From assembly GCF_002216795.1 (NCBI RefSeq), contig NZ_CP022316.1:2571205-2635204 (forward strand): a DNA stretch of 64,000 nucleotides, given 5' to 3'. Under the pieces are notes generated by a model, which saw nothing but the letters and a program-made list of their open reading frames with translations, was not told the DNA's origin and did no database searches. Origin of the DNA: Brachybacterium avium. GTDB taxonomy: Bacteria > Actinomycetota > Actinomycetes > Actinomycetales > Dermabacteraceae. Below are positions 10,518-33,341 of the stretch, piece after piece. The position numbers and the translations under genes are program-made. Each line of letters starts with the position of its first letter. Within the stretch, counting starts at the first letter, position 1.

Positions 10518-10605
10518 GGAGGGTTGTCAGAGCGGCCGAATGAGATGGTCTTGAAAACCATTGTGCAGTGACCCTGTACCGCGGGTTCGAATCCCGCACC
10601 CTCCG
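10518..10605 (+). tRNA. tRNA-Ser(UGA)
   Basis: The acceptor stem GGAGGGT (10518-10524) pairs with ACCCTCC (10598-10604), with discriminator G. The anticodon arm is ATGGT-CTTGAAA-ACCAT with anticodon TGA, and there is a long class II variable arm and a T-loop with GGTTCGAATCC. CCA is not encoded. The last 12 bases plus the next 4 are duplicated at 11216-11231. Confidence 0.97.
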
Positions 10606-10609
10606 CTCT
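10594..10609 (+). repeat. Left copy of 16-bp direct repeat (tRNA-Ser 3' end)
   Basis: CCGCACCCTCCGCTCT, covering the tRNA-Ser acceptor end and four following bases, is perfectly repeated at 11216-11231. The two copies bracket the collapsed IS481-type element exactly. Confidence 0.9.
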
Positions 10610-11215
10610 GTGGTGTCTCAGGACATCGTTCGCGGATGTCTTGGGACATCGTTCGCGAGGAGAAGGCTCCGGTGAGTGTTCACCGGGGTCTTTTTCGTTG
10701 TGGTTGGTACCCGCGGTCGGGGTCGATGGTGTGTTCGGCGAGTAGTTCTCCGGTGGCGAGGTCGATGACCATCGTGTCGGGGCCCTCGCGGATGATGCGG
10801 ACTCTCAGTCCGGCGTGGGCGCGGCCGATGCCGAGGTGGCGCATCGTGCCGGCGTAGCGCAGGGAGACTTTGCCGTGGGTGTCGACTCTGTCGGTGCGCA
10901 CGGAGTAGTCCCTCTGGCGGGTTCCTCCCACGGAGGCCTTCGGCGTGAGCCGGGGTCGAGGGCCTCGACGCCACCTTTGCGGTAGCGGGCCACGAGGATC
11001 TGTACCCAGCGCGGGGAGACGTGGAACTTCTGTGCGGCTTCGTTGGTGCTCATGCCCGCCTCGATGACGCTGAGCACTATCGCTGTGTTCTTCGACATGC
11101 TCCATCGTGCGAATGATGACGCGAGACACCAGCCCTCTACTACGGCCGATCATGACGACGCCGAGGTGCGAACGATGACGCGAGACAGGGGCGAACTATG
11201 TCTTGAGATCACACA
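10609..11215. mobile_element. Degenerate IS481-type insertion sequence beside tRNA-Ser
   Basis: A 607-base remnant bounded by a 15-16 bp direct repeat. The outermost ends are imperfect inverted repeats (TGTGGTGTCTCAGGACAT at 10609, mirrored by ATGTCTTGAGATCACACA ending at 11215). Inside are further copies. On the left are TGTCTCAGGACATCGTTCGC (10614-10633) and a near-copy at 10637-10656. On the right are two inverted copies ending GACGCGAGACA at 11109-11128 and 11168-11187. TGT...ACA ends with repeated subterminal motifs are usual for actinobacterial IS481 elements. Only the two ends of the transposase remain. Confidence 0.8.
10680..11098 (-). pseudogene. IS481-family transposase remnant, catalytic core deleted
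   Basis: The start codon at 11098 opens a normal N-terminal helix-turn-helix (NEAAQKFHVSPRWVQILVARY, ending GGVEALDPGSRRR). The frame then jumps to one encoding the family's C-terminal beta-barrel segment (GKVSLRYAGTMRHLGIGRAHAG ... ELLAEHTIDPDRGYQP), ending at 10680. The rve-type DDE catalytic domain that should lie between is absent, so an internal deletion of several hundred bases plus a frameshift has inactivated it. It cannot transpose, and at most the HTH could still bind the ends. Confidence 0.85.
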
Positions 11216-12123
11216 CCGCACCCTCCGCTCTCGGCCCGCGCCCAGGCCGTGACCTCTTCGGCCAGATCGCGGTCCAGCGCCGCCTCCGAGCGGCGCAGGA
11301 GCGTCGGCCGCCCCCGCAGGGCCCGGATGCCGTCGGGGCCGATGTAGGAGCCGGGCGGCAACGGCTGGGTGGCGGCGAAGAGCACCGGTGCGGCCCCCTG
11401 CGTCGCGGGCATGGCGAGCGGGCGGGTCACCTCGGTGATCATCCGGTCGAGCCGGGCGGAGCCGGTCGCGTTCTGCAGGTTCGTCAGCACCCAGCCGGGA
11501 TGGACCAGCTGCAGATCCACCGGCCCTGCCTGCTCCCGCAGCCGCTCCGCCAGCTCGAGCCCCCACAGCATGGTCACGAGCTTGGATCGTCCATAGGCGG
11601 CGGGCAGCGACCAGCCGCCGCGGGAGAAGTGAGGATCGGCCAGGTCGATCGCGCCGGCGGTGTGGGCATCGGACGCCGTCACCACGACCCGCTCACGCAC
11701 CAGCGGCAGCAGCAGATCCGTCAGCAGCAGGGGGGCCAGGGCGTTCACCCCCATCATCAGCTCGAAGCCGTCGGCCGAGACCTGACGGCGCCGGGTCACC
11801 AGGCCCGCGACATGGATCAGCAGGTCGATCCCGTGCTCGCCGGCGAGCTCCGTGATCCCGTGCGCCGCGGACCGGACCGAGTCGAGGTCCGCCAGATCCA
11901 GGTGGACCAGGCGGACCGCCTCCGGCCGGCCGGTCTCGCGCACGATCCGGGAGCGGACCACCTCTGCCTTGGCGCGATCGCGCACCGCCAGGATCAGCTC
12001 CGCGCCCCAGTGCGCGAGCTGGAGCGCCGCCTCGCGCCCGAGGCCGTCGCTCGCCCCCGTCATCACGACGGTGAGCCCCCGCAGATCCGGCGCGTGCAGA
12101 TGCTCCCAGCCCATGGCGTTCAT
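11209..12123 (-). CDS. Short-chain dehydrogenase/reductase
   Basis: 304 residues. The cofactor loop TGASDGLGRE is near residue 20, with an active-site region VVTASDAHT and the catalytic pair YGRSK. It resembles retinol-dehydrogenase/WWOX-like SDRs that use NADP(H). The substrate is unknown. The last residues (ESGGCGV) are encoded by the 16-bp tRNA-derived repeat, and the stop lies inside the IS481 end, so the present C-terminus was created by the insertion. The ATG at 12123 is taken as start, with 12114 as an in-frame alternative. Confidence 0.85.
   Translation of the reverse strand: MNAMGWEHLHAPDLRGLTVVMTGASDGLGREAALQLAHWGAELILAVRDRAKAEVVRSRIVRETGRPEAVRLVHLDLADLDSVRSAAHGITELAGEHGIDLLIHVAGLVTRRRQVSADGFELMMGVNALAPLLLTDLLLPLVRERVVVTASDAHTAGAIDLADPHFSRGGWSLPAAYGRSKLVTMLWGLELAERLREQAGPVDLQLVHPGWVLTNLQNATGSARLDRMITEVTRPLAMPATQGAAPVLFAATQPLPPGSYIGPDGIRALRGRPTLLRRSEAALDRDLAEEVTAWARAESGGCGV
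11216..11231 (+). repeat. Right copy of 16-bp direct repeat (tRNA-Ser 3' end)
   Basis: Perfect copy of 10594-10609. It can be read as a long target-site duplication of the IS481-type element or as an attR-like duplication of a tRNA integration site. Confidence 0.9.
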
Positions 12124-33244: not shown

Positions 33245-33333
33245 GGAGACGTGGCAGAGCGGCCGAATGCGCTCCCCTGCTAAGGGAGTAGGCGACCAAA
33301 ATCGCCTCGGAGGTTCAAATCCTCTCGTCTCCG
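33245..33333 (+). tRNA. tRNA-Ser(GCU)
   Basis: The acceptor stem GGAGACG (33245-33251) pairs with CGTCTCC (33326-33332), with discriminator G. The anticodon arm is CTCCC-CTGCTAA-GGGAG with anticodon GCT, and there is a long class II variable arm and T-loop GGTTCAAATCC. CCA is not encoded. Confidence 0.97.
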
Positions 33334-33341
33334 CCGACGAA

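Follow-up and report, generated by a model that had tools for sequence, protein, structure and literature searches.

The tRNA-Ser(TGA) locus and its insertion

The window, i.e. the whole 64-kb stretch of DNA analysed here, contains a tRNA-Ser(TGA) gene that is directly followed by a short IS481-type element enclosed between direct repeats (Table 1). An earlier note on this DNA had described the tRNA as preserved, and the gene is indeed intact. The 16-mer CCGCACCCTCCGCTCT, reported in the same note, is present at 10594-10609, reaching from inside the tRNA gene across its end, and again at 11216-11231. With up to two mismatches allowed, these are the only two sites in the window, against 0.21 expected by chance, and two such sites were reached in only 1 of 100 shuffles of the window. 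The interval between the repeats starts with TGTGGTGTCTCAGGACATCG and finishes with ...TGTCTTGAGATCACACA, which together form an imperfect terminal inverted repeat with TGTG...CACA termini and T10609 as the left terminus. Since the TGT...ACA ends thus begin with T10609, the element measures 607 bp and the duplication 15 bp; the 16th matching base of the repeat is a coincidence, and the length given earlier is to be shortened by one base.

Table 1. Features of the tRNA-Ser(TGA) locus, in positions of the window
Feature	Position	Strand	Basis or remark
tRNA-Ser(TGA), intact, target gene	10518-10606	+	ARAGORN; Rfam tRNA match
T-arm motif GGTTCGAATC (tRNA positions 52-61), proposed recognition sequence	10584-10593	+	abuts the duplication upstream
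Left 15-bp target site duplication (tRNA positions 62-73 and 3 trailer bases)	10594-10608	+	
Non-autonomous IS481-type element, 607 bp, TGT...ACA ends	10609-11215	.	five genome copies
Left (tRNA-facing) end: terminal inverted repeat	10609-10657	+	repeat search
Two ~21-bp repeats in left end	10614-10634, 10637-10657	+	repeat search
Intrinsic-terminator-like hairpin reading out of the tRNA	10659-10696	+	clade-wide comparison
Transposase C-terminus remnant (query residues about 308-410), one stop	10671-10970	-	
Transposase N-terminus remnant (HTH; query residues about 18-93)	10862-11101	-	
Right end: repeats and terminal repeat ending ACA	11107-11215	-	repeat search
Two 22-bp repeats in right end	11107-11128, 11166-11187	-	repeat search
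Right 15-bp target site duplication	11216-11230	+	

The element retains remnants of the N-terminal HTH and the C-terminal region of an IS481 transposase, with the catalytic core between them deleted. No integrase was found within the 607 bp.

Multiple copies and empty sites

A genome search recovered five copies of the element in the genome of the host, a member of the Brachybacterium group, all of 607 bp and 99-100% identical, and all situated at tRNA 3' ends, namely those of Ser-TGA (the window copy), Ser-CGA, Gly-CCC, Leu-GAG and Thr-TGT. Each copy is bracketed by its own perfect 15-bp duplication, which starts directly past the T-loop sequence GGTTCRANTC; random insertion would place all five at such sites with a probability of about 2e-26. 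In two close relatives the site is empty: the tRNA runs into the same downstream DNA with a single copy of the repeat, in one at 92% over 800 bp with no gap and in the other at 90%. Two copies of the 16-mer in element-free relatives, an arrangement that the earlier note had regarded as telling against its account, did not occur; only one copy is present.

The four sister copies likewise lack the catalytic core, so that none of the five possesses the one intact transposase ORF of an autonomous element, and a search of the host's own genome for an intact transposase or helper found none. The absence of both the core and an intact genomic copy marks the 607-bp form as a non-autonomous derivative. 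Its general organization is MITE-like, in that it is short, keeps both ends, encodes no functional transposase and is present as near-identical copies with individual duplications. The description of the interval as a collapsed IS481-type element is therefore apt with regard to the family, as the HTH and C-terminal remnants attest, but not to the history, because the same deleted form has moved to five sites and hence did not collapse in place. As judged from the sequences, it was presumably moved in trans by a full-length transposase, the helper now being absent; related intact elements exist within the genus. Another deletion derivative, similarly built but distinct and about 563 bp long, is found at a tRNA-Pro gene in B. 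timonense.

Intact relatives and affinities of the transposase

A full-length relative (L043, 425 aa) lies at tRNA-Ser(GGA) in B. timonense, with a second copy at tRNA-Ala(CGC). It scores 256 bits against the NCBIfam IS481 model NF033577 (cut-off 224) and matches the Pfam domains rve and rve_3. Three acidic residues, D160, D219 and E264, are invariant in the alignment (A2), and the AlphaFold model of L043 (mean pLDDT 76) is closest to IstA, TnsB, MuA and the retroviral integrases. The relatives span about 1.27-1.49 kb end to end, which leaves room for the transposase ORF only; accessory genes, such as TnsA, TnsC and TniQ or those of CRISPR-Cas systems, are accordingly lacking. The window element has the TGT...ACA termini with inverted repeats that typify the IS481 family. 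Duplications in this family range from 2 to 15 bp and lie close to 15 bp in several members (PMC10045372); the 15 bp of the five copies fall within this range, and the 15-16 bp of the relatives extend slightly above it.

A transposase clade associated with tRNA 3' ends

Loci related to the element were gathered by genus, order and phylum searches and from a named genome collection. The intact relatives form one well-supported transposase clade spread across Actinomycetota, Chloroflexota and other lineages. A single branch, with 99% SH-aLRT support from a quick tree method, holds all the T-arm elements and, besides the off-target ones, L147-L149 as its only tRNA-less rows. Named members include Brachybacterium, Corynebacterium, Helcobacillus, Demequina, Sinomonas, Microbacterium, Mycobacterium, Nonomuraea and Tissierella; Chloroflexota metagenome-assembled genomes are also represented, although such assignments may include contamination.

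ARAGORN detected a tRNA at 89 of the 124 distinct loci of the clade. It lies on the same side and strand in all 89 and elsewhere in none, its 3' end invariably facing the C-terminal end of the transposase, which is encoded on the opposite strand. Seven loci of the 124 are without flank, and 28 are without a detected tRNA within 350 bp, some loci first scored as lacking a tRNA being located at contig edges. When these 28 were read by hand, about 12 proved to adjoin the 3' half of a tRNA, with the motif correctly spaced, about 10 were tandem insertions or had a tRNA 3' end within the other duplication, and about 5 were off-target or unclear. About 25 isoacceptors are found among the targets.

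Several individual loci merit mention. L147, L148 and L149 form a side branch within the clade with no nearby tRNAs, a possible case of loss of the target preference. L204, L224 and L257 have clade elements inserted in tandem at one tRNA end, so that a site already taken seems able to accept a further insertion. The left end of a different family member (L301, in genome G018) occupies the same tRNA-Ser(TGA) position in another species of the genus, indicating that this site has been hit repeatedly. L302 (NZ_CP012477.1, an Arthrobacter megaplasmid) has a perfect 15-bp duplication and adjoins a fragment that comprises just the 3' half of a tRNA, the complete gene being absent. Two apparent cases were set aside: L278, which the tree script had labelled as tRNA-linked only on account of a tRNA-Glu about 390 bp away, was left out of the clade counts, and L299, despite a nearby tRNA, falls in another IS481 group, the proximity probably being a coincidence.

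Target motif and length of the duplication

Duplications were called blind to the motif. Sixty-four were obtained in the clade, 58 of them of 15-16 bp, and in 56 of the 64 the ten bases upstream are an exact GGTTCRANTC. The remainder comprise two that match at 9 of 10 positions, four tandem insertions and two others without a match. Among other IS481 elements, used as a control, none of 18 duplications is preceded by a match of at least 7 of 10, even though these duplications are also mostly of 15-16 bp; the long stagger is therefore probably older than the tRNA habit. The 15-16 bp duplications that the earlier note had proposed to seek in IS481 relatives are thus present, and in this clade they lie as a rule at tRNA 3' ends.

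In two off-target insertions an approximate version of the motif is found at the usual distance, GGTTCAGTTC in L137 and GGGTCAAGTC in L210, and at least two further clade members (L191 and L195) are at sites without a recognisable motif. The host chromosome contains 51 GGTTCRANTCC sites, 37 of them in tRNAs. With 14 of the 51 outside, the motif does not by itself fully explain the near-exclusive use of tRNAs, for which selection or further contacts would be needed in addition. The window's other tRNA gene, Ser(GCT) at 33245-33335, has the same T-loop motif and is without an element.

A second IS481 lineage (L174, L286, L291, L293, L294 and L295, with transposases 31-35% identical) is also found at tRNA 3' ends, in the opposite orientation; in L174 and L293 a 16-bp duplication starts about 8 nt before the tRNA end.

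A terminator-like hairpin at the tRNA-facing end

A terminator-like hairpin was detected by a looser rule within the first 130 bp of the tRNA-facing end in 85 of 100 clade ends, as against 3 of 18 control ends; shuffled ends also score (37 of 100), so that the difference is partly compositional and a terminator is supported rather than proven. A strict terminator rule, which misses GC-rich hairpins, recovered 55 of 106 ends. The hairpin might in addition terminate transcription of the transposase gene arriving from the opposite side. At six loci (L182, L183, L184, L185, L186 and L301) the tRNA-facing end alone is left at a tRNA, in most cases with the hairpin intact. Such leftover ends in relatives within the genus were possibly retained as the terminator of the tRNA; the left-end remnants at tRNAs give a hint of bias toward the terminator end in a search that itself favoured left ends.

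Mode of insertion and alternative explanations

Taken together, the position and duplication, the five copies, the empty sites, the fixed orientation and the clade-wide specificity point to a non-autonomous, MITE-like deletion derivative of an IS481 element, probably inserted in trans by a full-length transposase that recognises the tRNA T-loop and cuts with a 15-16 bp stagger. We assign this reading a probability of roughly 0.9. The transpososome would recognise the conserved T-loop GGTTCRANTC (positions 52-61) of tRNA genes, the transposase itself probably reading it as DNA, and would cut one strand straight after the motif and the other strand 15 or occasionally 16 bases further downstream. 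The left end would then be joined right past the mature tRNA 3' end, and gap repair would copy the 15 bases and regenerate the tRNA. tRNA positions 62-76 amount to 15 nt; a 15-bp stagger hence spans exactly the stretch between T-loop and CCA end, and the mature tRNA is rebuilt. What is left of the transposase gene is convergent to the tRNA in every copy, an orientation probably fixed by the different number and arrangement of repeats at the two ends of the element, and the tRNA-facing hairpin could substitute for the terminator that has been pushed away.

The earlier note had offered two accounts of the locus, an unusually long duplication made by the insertion sequence within a tRNA gene, and the scar left by an integrative island at the tRNA, into which the insertion sequence moved afterwards. 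The former is upheld by the five different 15-bp duplications at five tRNAs, by the single-copy empty site in close relatives and by the 15-16 bp rule of the transposase clade; what it overlooked is that tRNA ends are the specific target of the element. The latter, under which the repeats would be attL and attR of a tyrosine recombinase and the island content would have been lost before a copy arrived, is suggested by the resemblance of the repeat to att sites at a tRNA 3' end, by the frequent use of tRNA genes by islands and by some clade members that adjoin an incomplete tRNA, its 3' half only, and may mark the junction of an island. It is nonetheless very improbable, given that the element fills the space between the two repeats exactly and contains no integrase, that the repeats around the same element differ from tRNA to tRNA, and that the empty sites of relatives are contiguous. 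Spread of the five copies between tRNA loci by homologous recombination or gene conversion, rather than transposition, might be imagined from their near-identity and the similarity of the adjoining tRNA 3' ends; we regard it as the least probable account, because each copy has the 15 bases of its own tRNA on both sides, where a donor repeat would be expected, and because the T-arm is all that the target tRNAs have in common.

Selection is a further possibility. If insertion were broad and copies survived only at tRNA ends, the harmlessness of a site at which the tRNA is rebuilt would account for the pattern, and the few clade members elsewhere (L191, L195, L137 and L210) would be its exceptions. 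The base-exact position, the single orientation in all 89 loci and the constant upstream motif all make this very improbable; moreover, IS481 relatives that make an equally long duplication of 15-16 bp persist at many non-tRNA sites, and L137 and L210 keep their near-matches at the same spacing. More plausible, though still doubtful, is a variant of the preferred reading in which the tRNA transcript, RNA polymerase or a cruciform of the T-stem directs the transposase beyond the DNA sequence. Being an inverted repeat, the T-stem could extrude, and none of the 14 motif sites outside tRNAs carries an element, all five copies being at tRNAs. On the other hand, insertions next to truncated tRNAs of which only the 3' part is present (L302 and others) argue against such a cue, unless the fragments post-date the insertions, and the near-cognate non-tRNA sites of L137 and L210 suggest that the DNA sequence is enough.

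Relationship to known systems and implications

The transposase shares with the IS481 family (NF033577) the DDE architecture of an HTH, an rve core and a C-terminal domain, together with TGT...ACA ends; it differs in that nearly every insertion is at a tRNA T-arm and in one orientation, and the window copy further in having lost the transposase core. Simple insertion sequences are usually thought to have loose or short target preferences. The word tRNA is absent from a survey of the IS481 family (PMC10045372), and no earlier report of tRNA targeting by IS481 elements was found in the searchable literature, a body that leaves out most subscription papers and ISfinder. The branch that targets tRNA 3' ends is thus apparently undescribed.

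The known bacterial transposons with tRNA genes as targets depend on TnsD/TniQ or on crRNAs (PMC11406308). The Tn7-like elements and CASTs resemble the present clade in their related DDE enzymes, TGT/ACA ends, controlled orientation and use of tRNA genes as safe sites. Whereas they find the tRNA gene by separate targeting proteins or crRNAs, a single protein appears to serve here, with many tRNAs used per element, exact insertion at the 3' end and a 15-16 bp duplication. The Dada DNA transposons of animals (PMC3706591, PMC8869645) show a comparably strict specificity for tRNA and small-RNA genes, but are eukaryotic, target multicopy small-RNA genes and are unrelated in the evidence gathered here. 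Genomic islands and prophages integrated by tyrosine recombinases likewise use the tRNA 3' end, and the direct repeat that results from their integration keeps the tRNA complete. They do so by conservative, integrase-mediated recombination at one tRNA, with the att homology carried by the element, while in the present case the repeat derives from the target and varies from site to site; neither an integrase gene nor att repeats homologous to one tRNA are present. Direct repeats of tRNA 3' ends are therefore by themselves no proof of an integrase-borne island.

We consider it probable that a single-protein DDE lineage came to target tRNA 3' ends almost universally by recognising the T-loop at the DNA level, that it exploits an older 15-bp stagger for insertion that is scarless for the tRNA and supplies a terminator, and that a second IS481 lineage arrived at tRNA 3' ends independently, in the opposite orientation. 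If true, this would furnish a possible tool for DNA delivery to safe sites and a compact, one-protein model for target choice in the superfamily that includes TnsB, IstA, MuA and the retroviral integrases.
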